Position numbers and translations under genes: made by a program
The notes under the pieces: model-generated
Databases searched by the model: none
Told to the model about the DNA's origin: nothing
What the model saw: the letters and a program-made list of their open reading frames with translations, nothing else
In this document: one piece after another, positions 1 to 48,545 of the stretch
Layout: each line of letters begins with the position of its first letter
How positions within the stretch are numbered: position 1 is the first letter of the stretch
Assembly (NCBI RefSeq): GCF_013177315.1
Contig: NZ_CP053661.1
Location: 1,178,001 to 1,242,000 of the forward strand
DNA length: 64,000 nt
Direction: 5' to 3'
DNA from: Thermoleptolyngbya sichuanensis A183
Lineage (GTDB): Bacteria > Cyanobacteriota > Cyanobacteriia > Elainellales > Elainellaceae

Positions 1-648
1 TATACGGCAATTTTTGGGACTGCCGCTGTCTTTGCGATCGCCTACCTTGTCGAGAAGGGCAAAGGACTCAGGGGCCTGCGCCTGGTTAACTATTTCCTGG
101 CGACGATTCCCCTGGCGCTGCCCGGATTGGTGCTGGGGTTGGCCTACGTGTTTTTCTTCAACAATCCCACCTGGAATATTGGCGGGCTGGCAATCAGAAA
201 CCCGCTGAACTGGCTCTACGGCACGATGGCAATTCTGGTGTTGTGCAATGTGATCCACTTTTTCACCGTTTGCTTTCTAACGGCCACCACTGCCCTGAAG
301 CAAATTGATCCAGAGTTTGAATCGGTGTCTGCGTCTATGCGGGTGCCATTTTACAAAACCTTTTGGCGCGTCACGCTGCCGCTCTGCGTTCCAGCCATTT
401 TAGACATCGGCATTTACTTTTTTGTAAATGCGATGGTGACGATTTCTGCCATCGTTTTTCTCTATCCGCCCACGTTGCCGCTGGCGGCCGTGGCCATTGT
501 CAACATGGATGATGCTGGAGACATTGCACCCGCTGCGGCCATGTCTACCCTCATCGTGGCCACCAGTATCGGCGTGCGCCTGCTGTACTGGTTTTTGACA
601 CGCGGCCTGCAAACCCGAACCCAGGCCTGGCGATCGCAGGCAAGATAA
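1..648 (+). CDS. ABC transporter inner-membrane permease (C-terminal part)
   Basis: The reading frame is open from the first base, so the gene starts upstream of the window; 215 residues are visible. The segment is hydrophobic with several membrane spans and carries the cytoplasmic EAA loop of binding-protein-dependent permeases at visible residues about 106-132 ([11 protein letters not shown]...TLPL), which docks the ATPase. The general look is that of iron(III)- or phosphonate-type permeases of the Fbp/Phn class, but the substrate cannot be told from this fragment. The stop codon lies inside the first unit of a 15-bp tandem repeat that follows. The rest of the transporter must be upstream. 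Confidence 0.8.
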
Positions 649-30984: not shown

Positions 30985-32018
30985 TCAGCAATTAGGTCTT
31001 CCCACGGTTCCGTGATGGTCGGGATGACGATTTGCCGAATGTCAGCTTCGGAGGTGAAATGTACCCCGTGGGCATGGCGTTTTACCGGGTCAATCGCAGA
31101 TTCAAAGATGCTGCCAAAGATGGAAGGACGAACCAGATCCCATCGTTGTTTGGCGCAGTCTTCCAAAAGCTTGAGATCTTCTGGGCTAAGCTCAATCGAG
31201 TGGATTTTGGCGAATAGCCCACCGTTGAAATAGTCAACGCCGCGATAGCGACCCGCCGGAACGATGCCCCGTTGGTTCATCGCGTTGAACAAGCCACCCA
31301 GGATGTCGTAGGAACTGCCTTTGCGCTGAATGCAGTCCTCTAGGCACGAAACAAACATATCGCAAGGCAATAAGCCCCGGTCTTCGGCAAACATCGCCAA
31401 AACGCACTGCAACACAAACCGCTGGGCTGCCTGTTCATCAAAGTCAAGATGGTTTGTCTTTTTGGCTCTGTTGCTCAGGTCTCGATAGAGTTGCCCCATC
31501 AGTTGAGCGTTGCGCTCTGTGATCTCGACCTGATTGTTTTGAAAGACAGGCGGCTTCTCATCTGGATACATGAAGCCAAAGGCACTTGCCCGATTGGGCA
31601 ATTCCTCTAACCTGATGACATCGACTGGCGCATCAACTTGGTTGTTGAAGTCAAAGATCCAGAACTCATCAAAGTTGCTCAGGATTGAGTATTTGGGTTT
31701 TGGCGCAAGCCTCATCCAGTAGCGTTCAAGCTGGTCGTAGTGGTGCTTGAGGTTCGCGCCCCTGGATTTCATCTCGACCAATAGGCGTGGCTTCCACACG
31801 AGATCCGCATAGCCCTTGTGCCCTTTTTCGCCGCCACGATCTACCCGATATTCAAACTCGGCTCCGGCGTGTTTGGCACTTTCGTATCCAAAGGCTCTAA
31901 AGAATTCGTTCAAAAACGATTGGGATTCACTTTTCTCGTCACCCTGAGCAAAGTGTTCTTTGCAGCAGGAAACAAAGGTCGCGAGTCGGGGTTCGTTTGG
32001 CACGGGAATCGCTCTCGT

Positions 32019-33202
32019 GGGGTGCATCCCAGTTATGCAATGAGTAGAAGTGCTTAGTGCAGATTAAGGGCAGACGCCGTAGGCTCAGAGCAGTTGCTCT
32101 AAGGATAGTTGAAGCGATGGATGCCACCAAGGAAGCCCAAATCAAAGCCCATGCACTGGCGTTAGCGGAGTTGCTTTACGACGAGACAGACCCTGAACAA
32201 GTCAAAACATTGGCCGGGATCGAAGTCGCCGTTCGTGACCACCTACTGGAGTATGTGGGGCCTGAGATCGGAAATTTTTTATCTGCACAAGCAGCGGCAC
32301 AAGCTCTGGGCGAAAGCGGCACATCCAGAGTATCGTCGGACGCTTAAGTCTGAGTCAGCGCCAGAGCCAGCGGCTTAAGGTCAAGGCCCGCACCCAGTGG
32401 AGTCCTCAGGTTGAGACGTGCTGCTTGCTGCTGAGTGCCAACGAAGCCTATGCGCGAGCTGCCGACGATATCGCTGTGCTCACCGGGGTGTGCGTGTCAG
32501 GGAGTACCCAGCAACGGCTGGTGCATCGTCAAGACCTAGAGCCACCAGCGGTGGACAGCGGGGTTAAGGAAATGAGCTTAGACGGGGGCAAAGTCCGTCT
32601 GCGGACTCCTCAGGGGCAGCCCTGCCAGTGGCGCGATTACAAGGGGGTAAACCTGCATCAGTGCAGCATTAGCGCCTTCTACAAAGACAACGACAGCTTG
32701 GTCAACTGGCTCAACCAGCAGCCCTTAGCGCATCCCCTCGTTTGTCTTGGGGATGGTCACGACGGCATCTGGAACCTGTTTTCACAGATCGGGCATCGCA
32801 GCGAGCGCCTTGAGATCTTGGACTGGTACCACCTGATGGAGAATTTGGGTAACGTGGGTGGGTCTCAACAGCGTCTTGATGCCGTCGAAGCCTGCTTGTG
32901 GCAAGGGGATGTGGATGGGGCGGTTAGGCTATTCGACGACTGGTCCCATGAGCGGGTAGACCAGTTTATCGGCTATCTGGCTAAGCATCGGCTCCGTATC
33001 GTTAACTACAGCTACTACCAAGCTGAGGGGATTTCAATTGGCTCGGGTGCCGTGGAGTCGACTATCAAGCAAATTGGTAGGCGGGTGAAAATTTCAGGCG
33101 CTCAGTGGAAGGAAGACAACGTTCCACAAGTCCTTCGCCATCGCTGCGCTTATCTCAATGGTCAATTCTCATCCTGAGTCTTGTAAGACTGGGATGCACC
33201 CC
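32019..33202 (+). mobile_element. ISKra4-family insertion sequence, 1184 bp
   Basis: The terminal inverted repeat GGGGTGCATCCCAGT is perfect over 15 bp (32019-32033 and 33188-33202). The 6-bp word TCTCGT flanks it on both sides (32013-32018 and 33203-33208). It sits at the 5' end of the type IIG gene and probably supplied the ATG now seen at 32027 of that frame. Confidence 0.87.
32057..33177 (+). CDS. ISKra4-family transposase with probable programmed -1 frameshift
   Basis: The first frame (32057-32347, 96 codons) is a helical N-terminal part. The second frame is open from before 32281 to 33177 and carries the DDE core: EMSLDGGKVR, GDGHDGIWNL, and IGSGAVEST with LDWYHLMENLG between them. The frames overlap, and at 32275-32281 the first frame contains T TTT TTA, a textbook -1 slippery heptamer in the correct phase. 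The fused product would be about 370 residues with all catalytic residues, so the element may be active. Confidence 0.82.
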
Positions 33203-33672
33203 TCTCGTGAGGTTGAAGGCAATCGCCTGTACTCTGATCAGATCTGCTAAACCTTTGCTGGGCAAGGATTTCGACAGATCTAAAATGAATTTTGAAACAA
33301 AGGCGATCGCTTACTCAAGATTCCCGATTTGTTAAAGTTAAAAACGAAAATGTGCTGTAAATTCATCAAAAGATCAAACAAAAGTAATAGATAGTACACA
33401 GGTTCCATGAATTTAATACACCTGAAAATAGATAAGCTTGGTGCGTCAGGTATATAAATACCTTTGCTTATGGGACGAGTGATGCGCGATCGCCCTCTAA
33501 CTGCTATTCGCATTGAATTGTGTGGCAAGGGACTGAGACTGTCAGGGCGATAAAGTCGTGACTGCAAAATAACGAGGTCGGTATAAGCCGCAAAAAGTCG
33601 TGAAAAGCCGTATAGTTTTGAAAAATCGACTAAACGTACCGAGTCCGGCGATACACTGTGTGGTGTGAACCT
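33203..33672. other. A/T-rich upstream region of the ATPase cassette
   Basis: No full gene. The left 60 bp may be the N-terminal remnant of the type IIG gene. From 33330 to 33480 the DNA is clearly A/T-richer than its surroundings, including a TATATAAATA stretch at about 33450-33460, and is a likely promoter region for the vMAP-AAA gene. The composition change supports acquisition by transfer. Confidence 0.55.
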
Positions 33673-34719
33673 ATGGATCTGGATGAGTTGATCAGGGTTG
33701 CGGATGCTGTTGTTCGGCAAGAACTCAAACGACCGCTAAGCGATTTGGAGCGCTATGTGCTGCAAGAGTCGTTTAAGGGCAAAAGCTACGAGCAAATGAC
33801 AGACGGCTGGGCTTTTAAGACGGTGAAAGATGCAGGTTCGCGGCTGTGGAAATGTTTTTCTCAGGCGCTTGGAGATGGCGTAAAAGTTCAGAAGTCTACG
33901 TTTCAGATGGCGCTAGTGCGCTTGTCAGAGCGGCTGGGGCATCGCCCGCCCGAACCTGCTCAAGCGGCTCTCTCCCCAGACTTATCCCTTCAAAAAAAGT
34001 CAATTAACTTACCTACCAATCCATTTGGCGATCGCGGCTGTATCACCGACCCCTCTCGATTCTTTGACCGATATGAGATTCTCAGGCAGGTCTTTGAAGC
34101 GTTGCATCATGGGGTCAGTGTGTCGCTGGTCGGTGAGTCGCGGATAGGAAAGTCTTCTTTGCTGGCGATGATTTGTGCCAAGGGGCCGGCAAAGCTTCAG
34201 CTACCGCCCACCGCTTTTGTGCAGCTCAATATGCAGTCGATTCGAGATGAAGCTGAATTTTTTGAAGCGCTGTGTCAGGAACTGGGCATCGAGCCGCCCT
34301 GCCGGGGCTATGCGCTGCGTCGCAAGCTGAAAGATACACACCATATCTTGTGTCTGGATGAGGTCGAGCGGATGAGCCATTCCGACGACTTTAGCGGGCG
34401 CGAGCGGACAGAACTGTGGGGGCTGGCAGATGGGGCGATCGCCCCCTTAACACTCGTCACCGCCAGTCGCTTGCCCCTGAGCCAGTTGTTTCCCGACTCA
34501 CCAGAGCAAACCTCCCCACTGGCAGGCATTTGCCAGACTATTCAAGTAGAGCCATTTTCGCCTGCGATCGCCCAATCTTTTATCATGCACCGTTTGCAAA
34601 ATGGCCCAATCCAGTTCACGCCTGCCCAAATCCACCAGCTAATTGCCCAGAGCGGGGGGCATCCTGCGCGTCTACAAGAGAGTGCGTCAGACCTGTACCG
34701 TCAGTTGTTGGAAGCCTGA
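33673..34719 (+). CDS. vMAP-type HTH + AAA ATPase
   Basis: A 348-residue soluble protein. Residues 1-88 match the N-terminal helix-turn-helix domain of vWA-MoxR-associated proteins (DAVVRQELKRPLSDLERYVLQ, shortened; SYEQMTDGWAFKTVKDAGSRLW). Residues about 125-345 are a STAND/AAA-like NTPase with Walker A GESRIGKSS at 154-162 and Walker B HILCLDEVE at 224-232. The usual C-terminal effector (protease, HEAT, WD40) is absent. ATG 33673 is preferred to a GTG five codons earlier. It is followed after 10 bp by the membrane ATPase gene, so the two are almost certainly cotranscribed and may act together. Confidence 0.8.
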   Translation: MDLDELIRVADAVVRQELKRPLSDLERYVLQESFKGKSYEQMTDGWAFKTVKDAGSRLWKCFSQALGDGVKVQKSTFQMALVRLSERLGHRPPEPAQAALSPDLSLQKKSINLPTNPFGDRGCITDPSRFFDRYEILRQVFEALHHGVSVSLVGESRIGKSSLLAMICAKGPAKLQLPPTAFVQLNMQSIRDEAEFFEALCQELGIEPPCRGYALRRKLKDTHHILCLDEVERMSHSDDFSGRERTELWGLADGAIAPLTLVTASRLPLSQLFPDSPEQTSPLAGICQTIQVEPFSPAIAQSFIMHRLQNGPIQFTPAQIHQLIAQSGGHPARLQESASDLYRQLLEA

Positions 34720-34729
34720 ATTGACCACA

Positions 34730-37255
34730 ATGCCACAGTTTTCTGTAGATTCCCAATGCTCCTGGGCTTCGAGGCGGACTCGCTGCCTTAGCCTGTTGCG
34801 AGGGCAACACTATCTCTGGCTACTGTATTGGGTTTATTTTCGCCCAACTCGGTTGAAGGAATATTTCTATCACATTAATCCTGCAATCTATAAGGCTGAA
34901 CCAGGGCTTCAGACCATCTTTCGCACAACTCAGCTTTCGCCGTATCGGAATCTTTACTGCATGATTCCTATCCTGAGTCTATGTTTTGGACTGGGGCTGG
35001 GGCTACCTTTATTGTGGCTCGCGGGCTGGCACTTGCAGCATTCTGTTGGTCTATTTTGGGCCATAGGTGGGGCGATCGCCGGAGCAGCCGTAGGAAGCTT
35101 ATTTTTTATCTTATTTCTAGGCGTGCTTGGAACTGTGGTCAGTATTGCCAGAGGACTGATGGCAAGCACAGTGGTTGGCGTTGCTAGCGGCATTATGAAT
35201 AGTATTTTATTCTGCGTCATCCTTGGCATTTCGCAGAGCTTACCCTGGCTAAATGTAGAAACACAACCTGGGGTTATTGCGTCCTTTGCGTTGTCCTTTG
35301 GGCTGGCTATTGGAATTATGGTCGGTGTGACGATCGGTGGCGTAGCGGGGGGCATTGTGGGGCTGGTGTTAGGAAGCACTGGAAGCCTGATCGTTGGCAT
35401 GGTGTTTAGCGTGCTGATCGTTGCCCTATCGGCAATTGACATTGCCGCTGAGCATACAGGTATCGTATTTGGATTTGTGTTTGGGTTGGTGGCGATCGCG
35501 ACTGGCGGGGCTGCGGTTAGTCTGGTAAAGGGGATTTTTAGCAGCGTTATTATTTCAGCGGCCGTGGGGGTTGCGGTTGGGTTTTCGTCCACTCCGGCTG
35601 TCGGTCTGCTGACGGGGGCGATCGCCATCTCCTGCTCACTACGCTTGCCGTTTTATATTATCGAGTTAGTTTGGGCAGGGTGCTGCCCTCAAAAATGCAA
35701 TCTTGCTGCATGGGATGAGCTGCTAGTTATTTATCTTCCTGGGTCGCGACAGCAACTTTTGCAGCAGATACAGCAAGATTTTGATCATGGTGTGATACAG
35801 CTTTGTTATATAGCCTGCAATCCTTTTCAGCGTTGGGTTGCACAGTCTGCACTAAAACATTATCTTATCCATCACCCTAGCCCACTTCATGAGCTGCATG
35901 GCTTACTGACTCACCCAGCAAGCCATGCATACGTTTTTGCGCCGCTCAGTCATCACGGCTGGCTGCATATTCCAGCAATCAACTATGTTCTTTTAGGGGA
36001 ATTACACGATCGCTGGGTCAACTGCACTACTGATCCCAGCAGCCGCTTGTTTGAGCATCTGATTTATCAGATCAGCCGCTGTTTGCGAAACAATAGCCAG
36101 ACCCCGCTAACCGAATGGGCTAGGATCTTATTCCAGTTGCAGCTTGCAGAAATATCCCAGCAAAAGCTTTCATTGCGGCAGATTGCTGAAATCCAGGCGA
36201 TCGCAGCTCAGCTTGACTCCTATCCCGGCGGTGCAGAAATCTGTCAGATGTTTGATGTTATTCATATTTTTCTCAAGGGCGATCGCCTTGCGCCTCTTGC
36301 AGAGACAGTCTCTCATACAGATCTCCGCTTTCTCCGCAAAAAAGATGCGCTTAATCCACCCGCACTAGAGATTTTGCATCAATTGCAAACGATTGCAATC
36401 GACATCTACACATCTGAGCAAACCAGCCGGGTTAATCAACAGGCGGCCTTGCTGCGAACAACCAACACGCTCAACTTGCTAGAAGAAAAGCTCGACGCAC
36501 ACGTTATTACGCCTGAGCGAATCCTTTTGCGGCAAGTGATTCATCACTGGCAGCATCTTGTTTGCATAGCCAGTGGAGAAATTGGCAATGCCCAGCTTAT
36601 TCAGCCAATCCCTAATCCCTATGTCATCGGCAACCCAGTGACAGGTAGCCTTTTCGTGGGTCGTGAGGACATTATGCGTCGGCTCGAAGAACTCTGGTTG
36701 CCTAGTCAACAGGTGCCGTCTGTGGTGTTGTATGGGCAGCGGCGCATGGGAAAATCGTCAATTTTGCACAACCTTGAAGCTATTTTGGGCGATCGCGCTG
36801 TCATCGTCGACTTCAATTTGCAGGTCATGGGCATCGTCAATAATACTCACGAATTGCTCTATGCGCTTGCCATAGAAATGTACGATAGGCTGCCTCCACC
36901 CTTAACTGTTACATTCCAGGAACCCCAGCTTTCTCAGTTCATGCAGAATAATCCTTATCAATCTTTTCTACGGTTTCTTAAGCATCTTGATTCTGTTCGA
37001 GCTGGCAGGCGATTTATTATCACGGTTGATGAGTTTGAGTTGTTAGAACAGCTTATTGAAGCCAATGTGGTAGAACAACGATTAATCACCTTTTGGCGAG
37101 GGCTAATTCAAACCTATCCGTGGTTTATTATGGCCTTTGCTGGACTGCATACCCTTGATGAAATGCGGCAAGACTACTGGTGTCCGCTTTTTAGTAGTGT
37201 AACTGCTATTCCAGTAGGGCCTCTCTCGTTTTCAGCAGTGCAGCAATTAATATAA
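34730..37255 (+). CDS. Polytopic membrane AAA ATPase, truncated by frameshift
   Basis: An 841-residue protein. A short N-terminal region with LLYWVYFRPTRLKEY is followed by about eight or nine Gly-rich membrane segments (residues about 78-318, with VGVTIGGVAGGIVGLVLG-like stretches), a soluble helical region (about 330-640), and an AAA ATPase with VGREDIM, Walker A GQRRMGKSS at about 668-676 and Walker B IITVDEFE near 763. The frame ends at TAA in an AATATAATAAT stretch; the natural C-terminus continues in another frame at 37258. It resembles STAND-type signalling ATPases but with an unusual channel-like membrane part. Confidence 0.75.
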   Translation: MPQFSVDSQCSWASRRTRCLSLLRGQHYLWLLYWVYFRPTRLKEYFYHINPAIYKAEPGLQTIFRTTQLSPYRNLYCMIPILSLCFGLGLGLPLLWLAGWHLQHSVGLFWAIGGAIAGAAVGSLFFILFLGVLGTVVSIARGLMASTVVGVASGIMNSILFCVILGISQSLPWLNVETQPGVIASFALSFGLAIGIMVGVTIGGVAGGIVGLVLGSTGSLIVGMVFSVLIVALSAIDIAAEHTGIVFGFVFGLVAIATGGAAVSLVKGIFSSVIISAAVGVAVGFSSTPAVGLLTGAIAISCSLRLPFYIIELVWAGCCPQKCNLAAWDELLVIYLPGSRQQLLQQIQQDFDHGVIQLCYIACNPFQRWVAQSALKHYLIHHPSPLHELHGLLTHPASHAYVFAPLSHHGWLHIPAINYVLLGELHDRWVNCTTDPSSRLFEHLIYQISRCLRNNSQTPLTEWARILFQLQLAEISQQKLSLRQIAEIQAIAAQLDSYPGGAEICQMFDVIHIFLKGDRLAPLAETVSHTDLRFLRKKDALNPPALEILHQLQTIAIDIYTSEQTSRVNQQAALLRTTNTLNLLEEKLDAHVITPERILLRQVIHHWQHLVCIASGEIGNAQLIQPIPNPYVIGNPVTGSLFVGREDIMRRLEELWLPSQQVPSVVLYGQRRMGKSSILHNLEAILGDRAVIVDFNLQVMGIVNNTHELLYALAIEMYDRLPPPLTVTFQEPQLSQFMQNNPYQSFLRFLKHLDSVRAGRRFIITVDEFELLEQLIEANVVEQRLITFWRGLIQTYPWFIMAFAGLHTLDEMRQDYWCPLFSSVTAIPVGPLSFSAVQQLI

Positions 37256-38542: not shown

Positions 38543-41500
38543 TTAGAGGGTTGTCTCAGAGTCACATTCTCGGCTCAGCACCAGCCGCCCGTCGGTTAAT
38601 TCATACACGCCCTGCGGTTCGATAGTGGGGTCGCCGGGCTGCCAGGAACGGCTCTGGGGCAATGGCTCTGGGGTCGTTTCGGGTAGCGGCTGCACGTCTC
38701 CGGTTGGGAAGGGCGACAGCGACGCATCCCCCGGTGCGTAGGGCAAGCCGCCAGACCCCGTAATGACGAAGCGACCCGATTGGCGATCGCGCACCACGCA
38801 GCTACTGGCCAGCAGTCGCCCCTCGTCTATCGAGGCATCTGCTAGCGGCGTGAGGCTATTTTGGACGCTGCTGGTATCGGGAGTGATGATTTGCCCGGGG
38901 GCGGTTTGTCCTGAGGCGTTTAGGTCTACCTGGTCGTTGCCGTCAAAGTCATCTGCGCTACCGGGGGGATTCGTCTCGCTGAAAAAGGGCGGGAGCGTGA
39001 TGTTGCCGCCACGCCCCTCGGCTGCTCGACTAATAATGTCGCTGTCGTCGAAGGCGACCACGCCCGCGCCGCCGATGGTGATGTTGCCGCCGTCGCCCCG
39101 GCTATTGGTGGTAATGTCGCTGTCGCCCTCCAGCACCATGAGGCTGCGGGTTGACCGACTGCCTGTGTTGATTTCGATATTGCCGCCGGAGGAGCGGGGG
39201 GCGCGGGTGGTGATGTCGCCGTCGGACATTTCCAGGCGATCGCCCGTGTTGATGCGAATGTTGCCTGCTGTGCCGCGCCCGCTGCTGGCGGCAGTGATGG
39301 TGGCGCGTTCGTTGAGGAACAGGCTGCCCGTGTTCAGCGTGATGTTCCCGCCTGCGTCTCGGCGGCTGGCGGCGGTGATGTTGCTGTTGGTCAGAAAGGT
39401 GCGATCGCCCACGGTCAGCGTGATGTTCCCCGCCGTGCGCCCTCCCGTATTTTCTGCGGTAATGGCGGCGTTGTCGGTTAGGTTCAGGCTGCTAGTACTC
39501 AGCGTGATGCTGCCGCCTGCGGCAAACCGTCCTGCGGCAGTGATATTGCCATTGTTCAACCGCGTGCCGCCGCGAATTGCGATGTTGATATCGCCTGCAT
39601 CTCCCTGCCCTGCGGTTTGGGCAGAAATGGTGGCGCTGTCCAACACCTGCAAGCTGTTGCCGCGCAGGGTGATGTTGCCGCCGCGTCCTCTGGAGTTGAG
39701 CCGGGTGTCGGCAAATAGCCCGCTCTGCCCATCGGCTACGTTGGCGACCGCAGTGCCAAATTTTTCGCGGCGATCGCCCACCGTTGAATCGCTGCCCGAA
39801 AACAGAATGTCGCCGCCCTCCAGGGTAACGCTGCCCGCCTGCCCTCGCCGCAACGCGCTGGCAATCACCTGGCCGCCGCCCGTCGCCTCAAACTCGTTGA
39901 CCGATAGGCGAATGCTGCCACCGCGACGGTTGTTTTCGCTGAGCGCATAGATCACGGCCCCATTTAGAATTCGCAGACGGTTAGCTCGAATGAAAATTTC
40001 GCCGCCGCGCCCCTGTGCGCCCTGCTGAGCATTTGTGAACAATCCGCTGGAGCGACCCGTTTGGTTGGTCAATCCTGCCAGCCGGACATTGCCTGTTGCG
40101 ATCACCCGAATGTCGCCTGCATTGCCCCCTCCGCGGGTATTGGCCACCAGTTGGGCCCCACGGGTGATGGCCAGCGATCCGGTTCTGATGTTGACCCTGC
40201 CGCCTTGCCCGATTCCACCAGTTTCTACATTGCTGAAGATACCTGTGCCTGTGCCTGAGAGAAAGATGCGATCGCCCACTCGAAGAATCACAGCTCCCGC
40301 ATTGCCCCGTGCGCGAGTGCTGGCGACGAATTGCGCCCCATCAGCCAGTTCCAACCGATTGGCGGTAATGCTGATGTCGCCGCCGTTTCCGACTGCATTC
40401 CCTTCAACGTTGCTAAAGGCAACGCTGACCTGTCCATTGGGGCCGGTTCCAGCAAAGCGCACCTGACCCGTAGCGTTGATCGTGATGTCTCCGGAGTTGC
40501 CCTTGCCCAGCGTGCCCGAAAATAGCCGTGCCCCGTCCAGCACAAACAGGTTGCGGGCTTGAATGTAAATGCTGCCACCATTTCCGGTCGCACCGTTGTC
40601 AACGCGGCTAAAGATGGCGCTGGTCAACTGCTGGTCTGCGCTGAGTCCCTGAAACAGCACATCCCCACTTGCGCGAATCAAAACATCTCCCGCATCGCCC
40701 TGACCGTTGGTATTGGACAAAAGCTGTGCGCCGTTTAGCACCGACAGTGACCCTGTTTCAATGTCAATGGTGCCGCCGCGAAGCTGGATGCGGTCGTCTA
40801 GCGCCAGGGTTTCTGCATTGATACGGGTGAAAATGGACGTGTCCTTACCATCGAGTAAGATGCGATCGCCCACTCGAATCACCACGTCTCCCGCATTTCC
40901 TTCAGCGCTCGTGCTGGCGACCAGTTGCGCCCCATCAGCCATCTCTAGCACGTTGGCGGTCAGGCTGATGTTGCCTCCATCGCCTACTGCGTTTCCCTCT
41001 GTATTGGCGAATACTACGCTGGTTTGTCCAGTGGGACTGGTTCCGGCAAATCGCACTCGCCCGGTGGCATTGATGATGATATCGCCCGAATTGCCCTGGC
41101 CTAACGTACCCGAAAACAGCCGCGCTCCGTCCAGCACGAATAAGTTACGGCTGCGGATATCGATATTGCCGCCCTGACCCCTGCCGCCTGCGCCGATTCG
41201 GCTAAAGATCGCGCTGTGGAATTGGTTGTTGGCGCTACGCCCTCGAAAGGTGACATCGCCCGCCGCCCGAATCGTAACGCTGCCTGCGTCGCCCTGCCCT
41301 TCTGTACTGGCGACGAGTTGCGCGCCATCTAGGAATTCTACTGCTTCAGCCGTAATGCTAATATTGCCGCCCCGCCCAAAGCTGTCAGTTTCAACATTGG
41401 TAAAGGCAACGCTGTTTTGTCCGTTGGCGCTATTTCCGGCAAATCGCACTCGCCCGGTGGCATTGATGATAATGTCGCCCGAATCGCCCCTTCCGAGCGT

Positions 41501-43480
41501 GCCTGCAAACAGCCGCGCCCCGTCCAGCACAAACAGGTTGCGGGCTTGGATGTCGATATTGCCGCCATTACCCTGTCCATCTTCTCCCACGCGGCTAGAG
41601 GCGGCGGTTGGCAATACACCATTTGGGCTACGTCCGCGAAAGGTGACATCGCCCGCCGCCCGAATCGTGATGCTGCCTGCATCGCCCTGCCCATCTGTGC
41701 TGGCGATCAGTTGCGCTCCATCGGCGAGGTTCACGGTTTCGGCGGTAATGCTGATGTTGCCGCCCCGGCCGATGCCGCCCTCTTCAACATTGGTAAACGC
41801 CACGGTGGTCTGTCCGCCAGCCCCAGTTCCAGCGAAGCGCACCTGATTTGTGGCGTTGATCAGGATATTGCCCGAATCGCCCGTCCCCAGTGTGCCCGCA
41901 AAAAGCCGCGCCCCGTCCAGCACAAACAGGTTGCGGGCTTGGATGTCGATATTGCCGCCGCGTCCTCTGGCTCCTTCATCAACGCGCACAAAGGCGGCGG
42001 ATGGCAGCGAGGTATCAGTAGGGCTGCGGCCTTGAAACGTCACGTCTTCGCGGGCGCGGATCAGAATGCTGCCTGCGCTGCCCTGCCCTTCGGTGTTGGC
42101 GAGCAGTTGCGCTCCGTTGATCAGCACCAAAGACCCCGTGGTGATTTGAATATTGCCGCCCTGAAGCTGAATGCTGTCGTCTAGGGCTAGGGTTTCTTCT
42201 CCCACGCGGCTAAAGATATCGCCGCCATCGAGTAAGATGCGATCGCCCACCGTCAGAATCACGCTCCCCGCATTGCCCTGCCCCAGGGTACTGGTGCTGA
42301 TCTGGGCCGTGTCTAGCAGTTCCAGTTGATTGGCCACAATTTCCACATTGCCCGCGTTGCCAATCGCGTTTTCATTCACGCGGTTTCTCACAAGGCTGTC
42401 TTCTGCGATTCGCACTGTGCCCGTTGCATTCAGCCGGAGGTCGCCCGCTTGGCTGCCCTCTGCGCCGAAGGTAGATGCGATGCCCGCCTGCAACTCGCTA
42501 TCGCCCAGCAGCGAGATGTTTCGGGCGGTGACGTTGATATCGCCCTTGTCCCCCAGCAGCACGTCCACAATTGCGCCGTTAGTAAAGGTCACGTCACCCC
42601 GCGCCAGCCCGTCGGGAATCACCAGGCTCCCGTTAGGGTTTAGTTGCGCCGTGCCGCCCGCCGCCACTGCGCCAATGTCGATGCGGCCGCCAAAGGCGCT
42701 CAACCGTCCCCCTTCGACCTGCACGTCGCCCCCCAGCAGCGTCAGGCTTTGCCCATTGGGAACCCGCAGCCCCACCAAAAACGGGTTGCCTGGAGCAACA
42801 GGCGTGACGGAGCGGTTGACGATAGTTCCTGCGGCCACCTGATTGAAAAATAGCGCCGAAGGATCGATGGTCAGCAACGCCGACGGAACTTCGGGGGCAG
42901 TGGCGCTGAAGCGTCCCAAATTGCCAAACTGGAAGCCACTGGCGGTGGTGGCCAGGAAAGACCCCTGGAGGTCGAGGCTGGCGGCGGGGCCAAACAGGAT
43001 GCCGTTGGGATTGAGGAAATACAGGTCGGCGCTGCCCAACACGCCCAGCCGTCCCAAAATGTTGGAGGGGTTGCCCCCGGTGACGCGGCTAAAGATGGCT
43101 TCCACCCCGGCGGGATTGGCGAAATACGCGCCGCGCCCCGCGTCGATGTTGAACTGTTCAAAGCTGTGAAACAGGTTTGCGCCGCGCCGGGCCCCGCCAT
43201 CGATGCGATCGCTCAAAATGCCCTGAATCAGCACGTCCCGCGTCACTACGGAGCTTTCTGCCCCCAGCGTGCCATCTTCAAGAATTGCCTGCGCTTGGGC
43301 AGCAGACGGCATGGTCAGCAGGCCCAGGGCCGCCGCGAGGGCAAAGGCTGTGACAGTTCCCTGGGGTGGACTAGACCAAGTAGGGCGTTGGGACTGGGGG
43401 CGGGATGGGGGACGCATAGACGCTTTTCGGAGAGCAAAAGTTGCCTGTAGTCTACCATCCTGCTTTTGGGTGAAACGCAT
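38543..43480 (-). CDS. Two-partner-secretion exoprotein (filamentous haemagglutinin-like)
   Basis: A 1645-residue secreted beta-helix protein. The signal region includes the hydrophobic VTAFALAAALGLLTMPSAAQA, shortened, at about 43-63. The TPS domain follows (about 64-260) with FHSFEQFNI, GGNPSNILGRL and FLNPNGILFGP, the usual haemagg_act marks. The rest is repeats; a module with RNLFVLDGARLFxGTLG occurs four times between about 510 and 990. A C-terminal region with CVVRDRQSGRF ends the protein. The start could also be at 43417. No TpsB transporter is in the window. Confidence 0.88.
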   Translation of the reverse strand: MRFTQKQDGRLQATFALRKASMRPPSRPQSQRPTWSSPPQGTVTAFALAAALGLLTMPSAAQAQAILEDGTLGAESSVVTRDVLIQGILSDRIDGGARRGANLFHSFEQFNIDAGRGAYFANPAGVEAIFSRVTGGNPSNILGRLGVLGSADLYFLNPNGILFGPAASLDLQGSFLATTASGFQFGNLGRFSATAPEVPSALLTIDPSALFFNQVAAGTIVNRSVTPVAPGNPFLVGLRVPNGQSLTLLGGDVQVEGGRLSAFGGRIDIGAVAAGGTAQLNPNGSLVIPDGLARGDVTFTNGAIVDVLLGDKGDINVTARNISLLGDSELQAGIASTFGAEGSQAGDLRLNATGTVRIAEDSLVRNRVNENAIGNAGNVEIVANQLELLDTAQISTSTLGQGNAGSVILTVGDRILLDGGDIFSRVGEETLALDDSIQLQGGNIQITTGSLVLINGAQLLANTEGQGSAGSILIRAREDVTFQGRSPTDTSLPSAAFVRVDEGARGRGGNIDIQARNLFVLDGARLFAGTLGTGDSGNILINATNQVRFAGTGAGGQTTVAFTNVEEGGIGRGGNISITAETVNLADGAQLIASTDGQGDAGSITIRAAGDVTFRGRSPNGVLPTAASSRVGEDGQGNGGNIDIQARNLFVLDGARLFAGTLGRGDSGDIIINATGRVRFAGNSANGQNSVAFTNVETDSFGRGGNISITAEAVEFLDGAQLVASTEGQGDAGSVTIRAAGDVTFRGRSANNQFHSAIFSRIGAGGRGQGGNIDIRSRNLFVLDGARLFSGTLGQGNSGDIIINATGRVRFAGTSPTGQTSVVFANTEGNAVGDGGNISLTANVLEMADGAQLVASTSAEGNAGDVVIRVGDRILLDGKDTSIFTRINAETLALDDRIQLRGGTIDIETGSLSVLNGAQLLSNTNGQGDAGDVLIRASGDVLFQGLSADQQLTSAIFSRVDNGATGNGGSIYIQARNLFVLDGARLFSGTLGKGNSGDITINATGQVRFAGTGPNGQVSVAFSNVEGNAVGNGGDISITANRLELADGAQFVASTRARGNAGAVILRVGDRIFLSGTGTGIFSNVETGGIGQGGRVNIRTGSLAITRGAQLVANTRGGGNAGDIRVIATGNVRLAGLTNQTGRSSGLFTNAQQGAQGRGGEIFIRANRLRILNGAVIYALSENNRRGGSIRLSVNEFEATGGGQVIASALRRGQAGSVTLEGGDILFSGSDSTVGDRREKFGTAVANVADGQSGLFADTRLNSRGRGGNITLRGNSLQVLDSATISAQTAGQGDAGDINIAIRGGTRLNNGNITAAGRFAAGGSITLSTSSLNLTDNAAITAENTGGRTAGNITLTVGDRTFLTNSNITAASRRDAGGNITLNTGSLFLNERATITAASSGRGTAGNIRINTGDRLEMSDGDITTRAPRSSGGNIEINTGSRSTRSLMVLEGDSDITTNSRGDGGNITIGGAGVVAFDDSDIISRAAEGRGGNITLPPFFSETNPPGSADDFDGNDQVDLNASGQTAPGQIITPDTSSVQNSLTPLADASIDEGRLLASSCVVRDRQSGRFVITGSGGLPYAPGDASLSPFPTGDVQPLPETTPEPLPQSRSWQPGDPTIEPQGVYELTDGRLVLSRECDSETTL

Positions 43481-43722: not shown

Positions 43723-44526
43723 GTGATTTCTGTGCTGTTGATCGGTTTCCTGGTTTGGCTGGCAGTGTTTCATTGGCAAACGCAGCGAGCCTTGCGGTGG
43801 TGGTTTGAGCAGCAGCACCACTGGCTTTGTCGCGAGGCGGAGCAGGTTCGCAACGGCCCTTTGCAGAATACCTTCGTTATGCGGCGACAGTTGGAAATGA
43901 ACTTGGAAATGAACTCGGAAAGGAACTCGGAGGCTCTGAGCAACCCCCTGACCGAGCAGCCCGCCTGGATGGCCCAAGTGACGCAGTTAAATGGGCAATT
44001 GGTAGGGCAACTGGTGCGGTTGAGCGATGAACTCTCGCCGCCGTATCTGGAAACCAGCCTGCCGCTGGCGCTTCAGGCGTGGGCGCAGGAGGAGGGGCTG
44101 TCGGGGCTGCTGCTGTGTTTACCGTCGAGGTGGCCAGTGGAGCCGACGCTGCGGGTGTCGCTGCTGCTGTCGATGTTGACGCATCTGCTGCGGGGAGCGA
44201 TGTCTGGGAGAGACGGGCCAGCGGCGATCGCCCTAGAACTGGTGGAGCGATCGCCCCTCGGCATCGGTCACATTGGCGTACTGACCATTCGGCTGGAGTA
44301 TCCGGCGGTGGCGGCGGCAAGGGCAGCCGGGCGATCGCCCCAGTGGGCGCTGCTCAGTCGTGCCTTTGCGGTGCTGGCTCCAGGCCGCTGCACCCGACGG
44401 CGACAGGCGCAGTGCATAGTTTGGCAGTTTCGCTGGCGGCTCTCGCCAGACCTATCGCCCTCCGATGTTGAACCCAGGTTGAACTCAGATCGAACCCAGA
44501 TTGAACCCAGATTGAACCCAGATTGA
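43723..44526 (+). CDS. Histidine-kinase-like protein lacking the phospho-His
   Basis: A 267-residue protein with GTG start. An N-terminal membrane segment (1-17) is followed by a helical dimerisation-like region in which EQVRNGPLQNTFV (about 40-52) aligns with NAIHSGPLQTLSR of the CHASE2 kinase two genes on; the His is replaced by Arg. The rest looks like a degenerate HATPase fold (LSDELSPPYLETSLPLALQ) without clear N or G boxes. It lies just upstream of the response regulator gene in the same direction. The last 15 residues are encoded by a 12-bp repeat array. Confidence 0.65.
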   Translation: MISVLLIGFLVWLAVFHWQTQRALRWWFEQQHHWLCREAEQVRNGPLQNTFVMRRQLEMNLEMNSERNSEALSNPLTEQPAWMAQVTQLNGQLVGQLVRLSDELSPPYLETSLPLALQAWAQEEGLSGLLLCLPSRWPVEPTLRVSLLLSMLTHLLRGAMSGRDGPAAIALELVERSPLGIGHIGVLTIRLEYPAVAAARAAGRSPQWALLSRAFAVLAPGRCTRRRQAQCIVWQFRWRLSPDLSPSDVEPRLNSDRTQIEPRLNPD

Positions 44527-44612
44527 ACCCAGATTGAACCCAGATTGAACCCAGATTGAACCCAGATTGATTCACGATTGAACTCAGATTAAACCCAGGT
44601 TGATTCACGATT
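44470..44612. repeat. 12-bp tandem repeat array
   Basis: About 8 near-perfect units of AACCCAGATTGA with diverged flanking units. It contains the 3' end and stop codon (44524-44526) of the kinase-like gene and extends into the spacer before the response regulator. Confidence 0.9.
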
Positions 44613-44700
44613 GGATCGATTGTCTCATCCCTGCGGATCGCGCAATGCTGTCTTGGATCAGCCCCCATCCACGTTATGACAAGAGTAAGGACGGCGCATT

Positions 44701-45486
44701 ATGATGACCAGAGCACTCGCCTTTAACCCAGCGATCGCAGCGGGCAAGCCCCAAAAGCGGCGATCGCAAATGACCACAGCGCTGGCGCTTAAGCTAGAGA
44801 GGGAGAAACGACGGGAGGCGCACATGGCGGGATCTTCTACCCTGAAGAAAATTGTGGTGGTGGACGACCATGAACTCGTGCTGAACAGCACCGTAGAAGC
44901 CCTCCGGCAGCAGTATGTCGATGCCCAAATCACCACGGCCCAAACCGCAGCCAGCGCCCTCGCCCAGATTGCCCAAACCCAGCCCGATCTGGCTGTGGTC
45001 GATCTGGCGCTGCCCGAACAGCCGGGCCAACCTTCGCGCCCAGAAGTGGGGCTGCAACTGCTGCGGACGCTGATGCAGCAATATCCCAGCCTCAACATTG
45101 TGGTGCAAAGTGCCAATGCCAAGTCGCTGGTGCGGCTGAAGCCTGCGATCAATGCCCACGAGGGCGGTTTCATTATTGCTGACAAGAGCCTGTCGCTAAG
45201 GGAAATGCTGACCAAGGTGGAGTGGGCGATGCAGGGGCTGGTGTTTACGCCGAAGGAAATGCGAACTGGGCTGGAAATCAAACCAGAGTGGCTGGAGGTG
45301 CTGCGGCTGGCGTTTCATGAAGGCTTGCAGGATAAGGCGATCGCCGAACGGATGAGCGTTGCTGAGCGCACCGTCCGCCACTATTGGACGCAGGTGCAAG
45401 ATGCGCTGGGCGTGTATCCCGACAGCGGCAAAAACCAGCGCATCCAGACCGAAATCCGCGCCCGCGAAGAAGGGCTGATTGACTAG
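44701..45486 (+). CDS. NarL/FixJ-type response regulator
   Basis: A 261-residue regulator; an alternative ATG at 44824 would give the usual length of about 220. The receiver domain has the acidic pair VVVDDHE and the phospho-acceptor Asp in AVVDLALPE. A LuxR-type HTH follows (LRLAFHEGLQDKAIAERMSV, ERTVRHYWTQVQDALGVY). The stop codon is only 2 bp from the CHASE2 kinase start, so the pair is cotranscribed and probably cognate. Confidence 0.88.
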   Translation: MMTRALAFNPAIAAGKPQKRRSQMTTALALKLEREKRREAHMAGSSTLKKIVVVDDHELVLNSTVEALRQQYVDAQITTAQTAASALAQIAQTQPDLAVVDLALPEQPGQPSRPEVGLQLLRTLMQQYPSLNIVVQSANAKSLVRLKPAINAHEGGFIIADKSLSLREMLTKVEWAMQGLVFTPKEMRTGLEIKPEWLEVLRLAFHEGLQDKAIAERMSVAERTVRHYWTQVQDALGVYPDSGKNQRIQTEIRAREEGLID

Positions 45487-45488
45487 CT

Positions 45489-47408
45489 ATGAACAAGCGG
45501 CAAACGCCCTGGGCGGCGCTGCGGCGCGAGTGGCGCATCTGGAAAGCGGGGGCGCTGCCGGGGCTGGCGGTGATTGGGCTGGTGGCGCTGCTGCGGCTGA
45601 CGGGCAGCCTGCAAGTGCTGGAACTTCTGACGTTGGATCTGCTGCTGCTGCTGCGGCCGGCCGAACCCACCGACCCGCATCTCCTGATCGTCGGCATTGA
45701 TGAAGACGACATCGAGGCGGTTGGGCAATACCCCATTCCCGATGGGCAACTGGCGGCGCTGATCCAGACCTTGCAACAATCGCGGCCGACGGCGATCGCC
45801 CTTGACCTGTACCGCGATCTGCCCCAAGAGCCGGGCAGCGCCGACCTGCAAGCGCTGTTTCGTAGCCAGACCAACCTATACGGCATAGAAAAAGTGATCG
45901 GACGGGCGATCGCCCCGCCCCCCGACCTGCCCGATGAGCGAGTCGGCTTCGCAGACCTGCCCACCGACCTAGACGGCAAACTGCGCCGCAGCGCCCTCGG
46001 TAGCTACAACGCGGAAAAGACCGAGTTTCGCTTCTCTCTGGCGCAGCGTCTGGCCGAACGCTTTCTGTCGGAACGCGGTATATCGCTTGCAGGCGGCATT
46101 CGCGATCCCTACGCCATGCGATTTGGCCCGGCGGAACTGCCCCGCACCCAGCCCAACACAGGCAGCTATCACCAGATACCGCTCATGGAAGTGGAAACGC
46201 TGCTGTTTTTCCGCAGCGGTTCTCGACCGTTTGACTTGGTAACCCTGCGCGAGGTGTTGGCGGGGCAGGTGTCGGCAGACAAAGTGCGCGATCGCATCAT
46301 CCTCATCGGTGTCGTTGCGCCCAGCGTCAAAGATACCTTTAACGCTATGGCCGCCGTCACGGGTGTTCCAGAAATCCCGGCGGGCACCATCGCCGGAGTT
46401 GAAGCCCACGCCCACGCCACCAGCCAGATCATTCAGGCCGCGCTCTACGGGCGGCCGCTGCTGCGCGATTGGGCAGACCCCTGGGAATATGGCTGGCTGA
46501 TTCTTTGGGGCATTTTGGGTATCGGGCTGGGGCGGTTTCTGGTCAGTCCCCTGCGGATTCTGGCGGGGCTGGGGCTGGGGCTAATCATTCTGCTGGGGCT
46601 GTGCTTTGCGCTGCTGCTGGCGGGCTGGTGGGTGCCGCTGGTGCCTGCGCTGCTGGCGTTTTTCCTGAATGGGGTAGGGCTGACGGCGGCGCTGTTCTAT
46701 CGCCACCAGCAGGATTTGAAGCTGCAATTGCGCGATCGCCAATATGTCATCGACCACACCTTCAACGCCATTCACAGCGGCCCGCTGCAAACCCTGTCGC
46801 GCCTGCTCAGCAAAACGCGGTCTGGCCACTTGCCCGAACGCCAGTGGGAAACAGAGCTAGAGCATCTCAACCGGGAACTGCGCGTCGTCTACGATTCGGT
46901 TCGTAAAGAAATCCTGACGGAAGACGGCAGCCTCTACCTGTCCGAAGACCAGGCTCTTGATCTCAACGGCCCCTTTGAAGAAGCGCTGTACGAGGTCTAT
47001 GACCACACGCTGCGGCGAGATTTTGACTGCTTTAAGACGCTGAAATTGCGCCTGACCACATTTGATCCGCTGGAAACTGCTGGGCTGACGCTAGAACACA
47101 AGCGAGAACTCTGTCGGTTTCTGGAAGAGACGCTTTGCAACGTGGGGAAATACGCCGTTGGAGTCACCCAGTTGAACGTCGTGTGCAAGCAGGAAAATGG
47201 TCAGAATCTCATCCGCGTGATTGATAACGGCAAAGGAATAGACCCCGAACAATCCATCAAGCCGCCTGCGCTGGGAGGACGCGGCACACAGATCGCGGAA
47301 AGCATCGCGAATCAGCTTGGCGGCAAATTTCGACGAGAGCCGATCACGCCCCACGGAACGCTGTGTGAATTGATGTGGAACCCTAGCAAGATTCGATTTT
47401 GGACGTGA
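45489..47408 (+). CDS. CHASE2-domain sensor histidine kinase
   Basis: A 639-residue membrane kinase. One N-terminal membrane segment (about 22-40), an extracytoplasmic CHASE2 domain (about 45-330, with LIVGIDEDDIEAVGQYP and PTAIALDLYRD), then three membrane segments (about 335-410). The DHp helix has AIHSGPLQTL with the phospho-acceptor His near 428, and the ATPase domain shows the N-box EETLCNVGKYA and G1 box VIDNGKGID. It signals to the response regulator immediately upstream; the stimulus is unknown. Confidence 0.9.
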   Translation: MNKRQTPWAALRREWRIWKAGALPGLAVIGLVALLRLTGSLQVLELLTLDLLLLLRPAEPTDPHLLIVGIDEDDIEAVGQYPIPDGQLAALIQTLQQSRPTAIALDLYRDLPQEPGSADLQALFRSQTNLYGIEKVIGRAIAPPPDLPDERVGFADLPTDLDGKLRRSALGSYNAEKTEFRFSLAQRLAERFLSERGISLAGGIRDPYAMRFGPAELPRTQPNTGSYHQIPLMEVETLLFFRSGSRPFDLVTLREVLAGQVSADKVRDRIILIGVVAPSVKDTFNAMAAVTGVPEIPAGTIAGVEAHAHATSQIIQAALYGRPLLRDWADPWEYGWLILWGILGIGLGRFLVSPLRILAGLGLGLIILLGLCFALLLAGWWVPLVPALLAFFLNGVGLTAALFYRHQQDLKLQLRDRQYVIDHTFNAIHSGPLQTLSRLLSKTRSGHLPERQWETELEHLNRELRVVYDSVRKEILTEDGSLYLSEDQALDLNGPFEEALYEVYDHTLRRDFDCFKTLKLRLTTFDPLETAGLTLEHKRELCRFLEETLCNVGKYAVGVTQLNVVCKQENGQNLIRVIDNGKGIDPEQSIKPPALGGRGTQIAESIANQLGGKFRREPITPHGTLCELMWNPSKIRFWT

Positions 47409-47753
47409 GGTTGAACTTTGGACGTGAGGTTGAACGGAATTCTGCTGCCCTGCTGTTTTCTGCAAGGGGGATGACGGTTTTGGGCGATCGCCCCCTCCCA
47501 AACTCGCCAGCGATCTTTCCGAACTCTTCATAGGCAAAAGGAATTTTCTCCGATAGCCTAATGCATAGGTGAATTAGCTCGTTGATATAGAGTCTTATCG
47601 AAGGGACAAGGCGAAGGAACAGGGATTAGGGCAGACACCAAAATCCAAAACCCAAAATCCAAAACTCAAAATCCAAAATCCAAAACCCAAATCCCTTCCT
47701 CCCCTTCCACCGCATTGACCTTGAACCTAGCCCTGAACGAGGAGGTTTGCCCC
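47409..47753. other. Non-coding gap with CCAAAATCC simple repeats
   Basis: At 47637-47693 the word AAATCCAAAACCC/AAAATCCAAAACTC repeats about seven times; it is the complement of the repeat at 4866-4915. A GAGGAGG ribosome binding site (47739-47745) serves the DUF928 gene. Confidence 0.6.
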
Positions 47754-48545
47754 ATGACCCGGCGTTCGCGTTTCCATCGACTATCCAGGCGGCGGGTTCT
47801 GCCCCCGGCGATCGCCACTGGATGCGTGCTGGGGCTTGCTCTGCTGGGTGTCGTCATAGCCCCGGCAACCGTCGGGCAGGCAAAACCCTCGCAGCCGCCC
47901 GCCGCGCTCAAGTCCTACAAGCCGCCGCCACCAAATTCGGACTATCAAGCACCCGCCCCCGGTGGCGGAATACGAACCTCCGATTGCAGCAATATGCCGC
48001 TGTTGGCCCTTGCGCCCCAGCTTCACCAGGGGCAGACCAGTACCCGCCGTCCCACTCTCGCCTGGTACGTCCCCGGAGACGTGGCGGGGATGCTGGTTAT
48101 TCAGGTGTTTCGGGGGACCCTGCGCGATCTGGAGCGGGAAACTGAGCTGCCGCTGCTAGACGAAACGCTGACCAGCCGCGCTGGCATCATGACCTGGACG
48201 GTGCCGCAGGATCTCACGGTGGGTGAAACCTATGCGTGGCGCGTGGTGCTAATGTGCGACAGCAATCGCCCATCGCTGAACCTGCGCGATGTGGCGGAGT
48301 TTGTGGTGGTTGCGCCGACTGGGGCGCGTTCGGCAGACCCAGTGCGCGATGCCCAGCAGATGGCTGAGGACGGTATCTGGTACGATGCCCTGGCGCTGAC
48401 CCTCAGTTCGCCCGCGTCGCCACAGATGCGATCGCTCCGCATCGATATGCTGGAAACCCTGGCAGATCTGGAATCCCGCAGTGATAGTCTGCAAGCTGCC
48501 ACCCGCGTCCAGGCGTTGCGCCGGATTGTGGAGGTGGAGCGATAG
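47754..48545 (+). CDS. DUF928 protein
   Basis: A 263-residue secreted or membrane-anchored protein. The ATG at 47754 has a GAGGAGG site eight bases upstream. A signal segment (about 17-40) precedes a Pro-rich stretch and the DUF928 core: PLLALAPQ, TSTRRPTLAWYVP, LPLLDETLTSRAGIMTWTVP and TYAWRVVLMCD. DUF928 is common in cyanobacteria, often near CHASE2 sensor genes; here it follows the kinase gene by 345 bp in the same direction, but function is not known. Confidence 0.82.
   Translation: MTRRSRFHRLSRRRVLPPAIATGCVLGLALLGVVIAPATVGQAKPSQPPAALKSYKPPPPNSDYQAPAPGGGIRTSDCSNMPLLALAPQLHQGQTSTRRPTLAWYVPGDVAGMLVIQVFRGTLRDLERETELPLLDETLTSRAGIMTWTVPQDLTVGETYAWRVVLMCDSNRPSLNLRDVAEFVVVAPTGARSADPVRDAQQMAEDGIWYDALALTLSSPASPQMRSLRIDMLETLADLESRSDSLQAATRVQALRRIVEVER

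Follow-up and report, generated by a model that had tools for sequence, protein, structure and literature searches.

A predicted pseudo-histidine kinase conserved beside a CHASE2 kinase–regulator pair in cyanobacteria

What might a histidine-kinase-like protein without its phospho-accepting histidine do beside an intact kinase and regulator? The question is raised by three genes, here called A, B and C, in a stretch of 64,000 nucleotides (the window) from the cyanobacterium Thermoleptolyngbya sichuanensis A183 (contig NZ_CP053661.1, positions 1,178,001 to 1,242,000), whose genome is a single contig of 5.5 megabases. The original prediction, read from the letters of the DNA, took A for a kinase-like protein with an arginine at the phospho-histidine place, next to a CHASE2 kinase and its regulator. 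Our follow-up suggests that A, dead as a kinase, would dock on B and most likely dephosphorylate it, a tentative reading in which we place a little less than half of our belief. The open reading frames of the window put all three genes on the plus strand in the order A-B-C. The features of the locus are listed below, where H+n counts residues from the place of the phospho-accepting histidine, and counts out of 97 and 61 refer to A and C proteins, respectively.

43723..44526, plus strand: gene A, a predicted pseudo-histidine kinase of 267 residues with a GTG start (open reading frame; AlphaFold pLDDT 80.1, with histidine-kinase matches); AlphaFold predicts an N-terminal membrane helix, a helix pair like the dimerization and histidine phosphotransfer (DHp) domain and a domain like the GHKL-type catalytic and ATP-binding (CA) domain
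43723..43776, plus strand: predicted N-terminal transmembrane helix of A, residues 1-18 (Kyte-Doolittle maximum 2.4; helix pLDDT about 97)
43849..43866, plus strand: degenerate H box of A, R43-N44-G45-P46-L47-Q48, from alignments, with Arg at the phospho-His place and Gln48 kept at H+5
43882..43887, plus strand: R54-R55 of A at H+11 and H+12 (R54 in 97/97, R55 in 90/97; H+12 is a regulator-contact offset in DesK)
44194..44196, plus strand: codon of G158 of A, aligned with N551, the N-box Asn of C (Asn in 0/97 A and 61/61 C)
44299..44301, plus strand: codon of Y193 of A, aligned with D579, the G1 Asp of C (Tyr in 89/97 A; Asp in 61/61 C)
44468..44603, plus strand: 11-base-pair (bp) tandem repeat, 12.4 copies, reaching from the 3' end of A into the gap before B
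44701..45486, plus strand: gene B, a response regulator of 261 residues with a receiver and a LuxR-type helix-turn-helix (Pfam)
45489..47408, plus strand: gene C, a CHASE2 sensor histidine kinase of 639 residues (Pfam)
46773..46775, plus strand: codon of the phospho-acceptor His429 of C (His in 61/61)

The neighbouring pair is present as first described, and it is intact. B matches Response_reg (1.1e-11) with a sub-threshold match to GerE, and C matches CHASE2 (PF05226, 6.1e-55) with a sub-threshold match to HATPase_c. The receiver residues of B (the Asp pair D55 and D56, the phospho-accepting D101 and the Lys K162) are complete in 61 of 61 proteins, as are the kinase residues H429, N551 and D579 in 61 of 61 C proteins. 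Two bases separate B from C; the 174 bases between A and B hold slightly more than half of the 11-bp repeat.

Is A itself a relative of histidine kinases? Window A has no match in Pfam or NCBIfam, and a search of PDB sequences with the A profile returned nothing at E up to 10; the same kind of search, made with the kinase region of C, yielded just two matches, both chance-like. The HisKA_3 model (PF07730) does not match window A and is absent among the 24 Pfam families matched by the 50 A members scanned, and a search of the source genome with it found three places, none inside the window, with neither A nor C matching the model. Structure prediction gives A its place. An AlphaFold model of window A, built from 50 family members (mean predicted local distance difference test score (pLDDT) 80.1, predicted template modelling score (pTM) 0.58), shows a membrane helix continuing into a long helix 1, then a second helix and then a GHKL-type alpha/beta domain, with a pLDDT of only 57-71 across most of the helix pair. 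Searched with Foldseek against the PDB, this model has 88 matches at E up to 0.001, of which the best 50 are histidine kinases or their relatives (phytochromes, the hybrid regulator LvrB and phosphotransferases). The top VIA-align row for the model is 5epv_D (Z 15.1, root-mean-square deviation (rmsd) 2.9, 155 residues), and it also aligns with DesKC-H188V (3ehh_A; Z 12.3, rmsd 7.3, 186 residues) and with DesK in the DesK-DesR phosphatase complex (7ssj_C; Z 11.3, rmsd 8.1, 207 residues).

A second AlphaFold model, of the Nostocales A from Trichormus sp. M33_DOE_039 (pLDDT 83.5, pTM 0.75), gives the same kinase-type matches. It aligns with 3zxo_A over the CA domain only (Z 14.6, rmsd 2.5, 119 residues), a coverage shared by many structural rows, and with DesKC 3ehf_D over helix pair and CA domain together (Z 13.0, rmsd 3.6, 175 residues). 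In the latter, residues 26..219 lie on 178..365 of DesKC, so that Arg36 falls on His188 if the alignment is ungapped, and four DesK rows (3ehf_D and three more) share this register. Both models have the DHp helix pair followed by a GHKL-type alpha/beta domain that makes up the histidine-kinase fold, and A is, on this predicted structure, a histidine-kinase derivative. Pseudo-histidine kinases as such are already known; the A family is new and without a name, and among the matches listed in the open-licence literature, judged by titles and abstract openings, there is no paper on it.

The alignment between the H boxes of A and C that the original prediction pointed out is real. Profile comparison placed VRNGPLQ of A on IHSGPLQ of C in two runs, setting Arg43 opposite His429, as originally claimed. 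The first run gave E 0.0044 for a single comparison and an HHsuite probability of 7.9%; the second scored 23.0 at a probability of 2.9%, with none of 30 column-shuffled controls above 19.6, and stayed colinear across the N and G1 boxes (H429 on R43, N551 on G158 and D579 on Y193). Because these probabilities are low, and identity in the profile alignment is 17%, we dropped a proof of kinship from sequence alone; the case for kinship lies in the fold, the colinear motifs and the locus, and we regard the match as more than chance because of the predicted fold, the family-wide conservation and the gene order. C-type kinases thus share with A a locus and the order of H box, N box and G1 region, and differ from it in being intact and, in most loci, in carrying CHASE2.

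Which residues has A lost? Our set comprises 97 distinct A proteins, that is, 107 stretches minus identical ones, with partial sequences and close relatives included. It takes in the loci of a survey of the order to which the source genome belongs and leaves out three remnants (in genomes G101, G151 and G243); a candidate in G270 (E 5e-4, residues 194-255) was dropped, as a profile search did not confirm it, and two others, L002 and L030, were self-matches of the 11-bp repeat. The phospho-His position holds Arg in 82, His in 6, Gln in 6 and Lys in 3. Loss of the histidine, which had been expected to be conserved, therefore holds for 91 of the 97 homologues: it is near-universal rather than absolute. 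The degraded ATPase motifs are equally evident. The N-box place never holds Asn (0/97) and mostly holds Ile (70/97; Gly158 in the window), the G1 place holds Tyr in 89 and Asp in 3 (Tyr193 in the window), DxGxG occurs in 0/97 A versus 55/60 C, and GxG[ILT] in 0/97 versus 59/60. A therefore lacks the phospho-acceptor His and the N, G1 and G2 boxes of an active kinase. The six His-bearing proteins keep the rest of the motif, and no ATPase box was recovered in them. On a quick tree, the residue at this place (R, H, Q or K) changed at least five times and four of the six His carriers are nested within an Arg clade, so that the His looks like a swap and not like a leftover kinase.

Which residues has A kept? 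In helix 1, H+5 is Gln in 97/97, H+8 Phe in 93/97, H+11 Arg in 97/97 and H+12 Arg in 90/97, and H+1 is Asp in 63, Asn in 21, Glu in 12 and Gly in 1, making it acidic in 75/97. Among well-filled positions of the helix, only H+5 and H+11 have zero entropy, followed by H+8 (0.31), H+4 (0.45), H+12 (0.46) and H+14 (0.52). Twelve columns are invariant across 26 aligned A sequences, and the nearest relatives keep RNGPLQE and RNGLLQE. The proteins are small, about 213-270 residues in most loci, and Pfam found no PAS, sensor or other added domain in the window copy or the 50 members scanned.

These positions gain meaning from the kinases DesK and NarX. In DesK, Gln193 (H+5), Ser196 (H+8) and Leu200 (H+12) are described as contacting the regulator DesR, Gln193 as placing the hydrolytic water for dephosphorylation of the regulator, and Asp189 (H+1) as pairing with an Arg of DesR in the phosphatase state (all PMC5231405); the phosphatase activity of NarX, as told in PMC3510030, needs both D and Q of DxxxQ. 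A resembles these kinases in the position of its H-[D/N]-x-x-x-Q box, whose H+5 Gln is the phosphatase residue in DesK and NarX (PMC5231405 and PMC3510030), and in its predicted DHp-CA fold; it differs from them in that they are active kinases, whereas A lacks the His, the N, G1 and G2 boxes and a HisKA_3 match. Because A keeps Gln, Phe and Arg at the H+5, H+8 and H+12 contact offsets, we favour an action on B, probably dephosphorylation, over plain sequestration. Tuning of the kinase or sequestration of the regulator, as originally suggested, may occur, but neither takes account of the invariant Gln, which favours action on B.

The mechanism that we propose would run as follows. A would be a small, often membrane-anchored protein whose CA-type domain retains the fold without the ATP site and whose DHp-like domain has lost the phospho-His and retained the receiver-docking face. 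C would phosphorylate B; A would bind phosphorylated B (B~P) through helix 1 of its DHp-like domain, and the invariant H+5 Gln, usually with the acidic H+1, would most likely position a hydrolytic water that removes the phosphoryl group. A could in this way set a threshold, the amount of C signal needed to turn B on. There is a precedent for a phosphatase-only sensor in BumS of Campylobacter jejuni, which is described as acting only by dephosphorylating its regulator and, like A, as being without the residues usually required for autophosphorylation (PMC11796366). BumS is set apart, by its description there, by a PAS sensor and a regulator phosphorylated by a non-cognate donor; A has no sensor domain recognised by Pfam and has an intact kinase next door. 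The CdgK-CdgS system of Anabaena was set aside as a different one, CdgS being described with a GGDEF domain.

Does A keep the company that such a mechanism would need? It adjoins the kinase and regulator genes in many filamentous cyanobacteria. A scan of named loci (one genome per species) yielded 64 loci, all with cyanobacterial titles and biased to Nostocales because the search patterns came from a Nostocales alignment. In 60 of the 64, A is followed on its own strand by B and then by a C-type kinase, which is inverted in two of the 60; this bears out the three-gene order. Richelia sinica FACHB-800 accounts for two of the four exceptions and Dolichospermum planctonicum for one; the last (L129, on the same contig as L018) is on a 3.3-kilobase contig that ends inside a partial B. 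Separately, three loci with a His-bearing A, namely L041 (the same locus as L013), L107 and L120, have their kinase gene turned around with respect to A and B; in a related His carrier, L105, it is not inverted.

A phylum-wide sample of 291 genomes, with at most 10 candidates scored per genome so that distant copies could be missed, has A or a remnant of it in 25 (22 intact, 3 remnants). A full B is present in 24 of the 25; in the remaining genome, G153, B is partial and lies at the end of a contig. Of the sampled genomes, 37 contain B or a close relative of it, and 13 of these have no A; the cut-off for B (E up to 1e-45) also admits more distant relatives, and B exceeds 340 bits in only four of the 13 (G027, G058, G116 and G127). 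A kinase adjoins B in 12 of these 13. In this sample A thus occurs only with B, and B also without A: A accompanies the B-C pair, which can do without it. Two copies of A are present in each of five sampled genomes. In four of these (G022, G039, G169 and G189), every A is paired with a B of its own, and with a kinase too except at one copy (L048); in the fifth, G076, neither copy has its own B or kinase, and B is located elsewhere in the genome. Within the window's own order, a survey covering 1.5 kilobases on each side found an A match in 16 of 36 genomes; these loci were left out of the gene-order count.

A is under purifying selection. Over 215 locus pairs with a synonymous rate (dS) of 0.05-1 in all three genes, the median ratio of nonsynonymous to synonymous rates (dN/dS) is 0.200 for A, 0.198 for C and 0.126 for B. 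In G101, G151 and G243, which belong to one genus, only a 3' remnant of A lies upstream of intact B and kinase genes (L214, L215 and L216); these are losses of A.

Several observations weigh against A as a phosphatase of B. The register of helix 1 varies between structural alignments: other DesK rows for the Nostocales model are shifted by 1 to 7 positions, and the first aligned residues of the window model are 6-8 off the DesK register. Since neither A nor C matches HisKA_3, the DesK and NarX offsets are carried over by analogy. Window A has Asn44 at H+1, giving N-xxx-Q, and so does not carry DxxxQ in the strict sense; 22 of 97 A proteins have no acid there. H+4 and H+14, likely core positions, are nearly as conserved as the docking side of helix 1, and H+11, an invariant position, does not figure among the contacts given for DesK in the available part of PMC5231405. 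The Gln at H+5 could be kept for docking or packing, and it is equally invariant in the live kinase C (61/61), so that dephosphorylation of B could be the work of C. The residues at H+8 and H+11 are not the same in A and C, which makes binding to B by both proteins an assumption. C, in turn, has Asn at H+1 in 60 of 61 proteins and Ser in the window, where HisKA_3 kinases such as DesK are acidic. We considered whether C gave up the acidic H+1 only beside A and rejected the idea, as kinases from loci with no A or only a remnant carry the same box (H-N in 15 of the 16 listed, H-S in one, L201); there is thus no sign that C gave up phosphatase activity beside A. DivL, a well-studied pseudokinase of this kind, also points the other way: it binds DivK~P, showed no phosphatase activity when tested and lengthens the lifetime of DivK~P (PMC4211667).

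DivL suggests the strongest alternative, which we consider unlikely yet serious: A would bind B~P and leave its phosphoryl group in place, and in this bound form would alter C or another kinase in a feedback, or would shield B~P. DivL of Caulobacter is built much like A, whose own fold is predicted, with a kinase fold, the phospho-His replaced and poor ATP binding, and it works alongside an active kinase and a regulator (PMC4211667 and PMC5361649). The conserved docking side of A would also suit such a reader, and the adjoining kinase C would be a natural target. A pure reader would not need the phosphatase-type Gln, which is invariant in 97/97; moreover, DivL has Tyr at the His place and PAS sensors, whereas no more than one membrane helix is predicted for A, and Pfam finds neither a PAS nor any other extra domain in it.

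A could instead act on C, through a mixed dimer of the DHp helices or a membrane contact that shifts the balance between kinase and phosphatase, which we think quite improbable. The two proteins share an H-box register, C is a membrane protein, and a membrane helix is predicted in 32 of 64 A copies. Helix-bearing A lies beside a long C in 27 loci and a short C in 4, compared with 13 and 16 for helix-less A, in counts that ignore kinship. The same counts cut the other way, since helix-less A stands beside a full-length C in 13 of 60 loci, and the regulator-docking offsets H+5, H+8 and H+12 are among the lowest-entropy positions of helix 1, with H+4 and H+14 close behind.

Still less probable is that A merely soaks up B at the membrane in a stoichiometric fashion. 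Conservation of the docking side fits this, as does a membrane helix predicted in half of the copies; the invariant Gln near the former His and the acidic H+1 in 75/97 would go unexplained. The remnants in one genus, beside intact B and kinase genes, might suggest that A is a decaying, functionless duplicate of a kinase, for which we see very little room given a dN/dS equal to that of C, purifying selection family-wide, the 12 invariant columns and the place beside B and C in 60 of 64 loci. Least credible of all is a histidine phosphotransferase in the lineages with His at the former phospho-acceptor place, for which the six His carriers with an otherwise kept motif would speak, since 91 of 97 proteins have no His, four of the six His forms lie inside an Arg clade, with repeated changes at this place, and their ATPase boxes are no better.

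If A does dephosphorylate B, nature would here have shared out the kinase and the phosphatase role of a two-component system between two of its proteins, and the A phosphatases would be a natural counterpart of the His-less DesK mutant. We entertain, with more reserve than the dephosphorylation itself, the broader idea that a bifunctional sensor kinase has come apart into two proteins in cyanobacteria, which would keep kinase-dead, stand-alone phosphatases beside a live kinase and regulator, so that on and off would be set by separate proteins and possibly by separate signals. About 1% of sequenced histidine kinases have another residue in place of the phospho-His, and studies of these are few (PMC5361649). 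The A family offers a conserved example with a nearly fixed set of partners, which are intact and serve as internal controls, and a single residue, Gln48, can discriminate a phosphatase from a reader.

C varies more in its sensor part. It is shorter than 550 residues in 20 of 60 loci, and in the 14 proteins of 250-340 residues inspected at their N-terminus hydrophobic stretches precede the kinase core, judged by eye, with CHASE2 missing or reduced; L111, L114, L124, L126 and L130 are among the short C proteins of this kind. Some short C proteins may be broken frames. Because A and B are still there, the CHASE2 signal is dispensable in some lineages. The 11-bp repeat TTGAACCCAGA provides the final residues and the stop of window A, extending its tail past the C-terminal Trp238 of the A family. 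All eight genome matches to the doubled unit fall within 44468-44603, and the repeat was not found in the loci of the two nearest relatives, L155 and L156.

Two flanking genes were considered as core parts of the locus.

47715..48545, plus strand: DUF928 protein 3' of C (Pfam PF06051, 3.4e-21)
38543-43480, minus strand: two-partner-secretion exoprotein of 1645 residues, divergent from A (Pfam TPS, 6.8e-46)

The DUF928 protein was rejected as such: it occurs in 20 of 64 A loci and also beside several A-less B-C pairs, so that it follows the pair rather than A, and it may be a target or partner of B-C. The two-partner-secretion gene was rejected too, as neither its N-terminal nor its C-terminal part, used as query, had a match in any of the 64 named loci with A, and its only matches among 46 further loci were L054 (with A) and L206 (without A). 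Farther upstream, two overlapping open reading frames of 353 and 870 residues (33658-37255) have weak, sub-cut-off Pfam matches to STAND/AAA NTPases (AAA_22, nSTAND1 and AAA_16). A 352-residue frame at 30969-32027 on the minus strand carries only the N-terminal and spacer domains of MmeI and is a possible fragment of an MmeI-like enzyme; a DDE_5 transposase-like frame lies near it, at 29558-30871.

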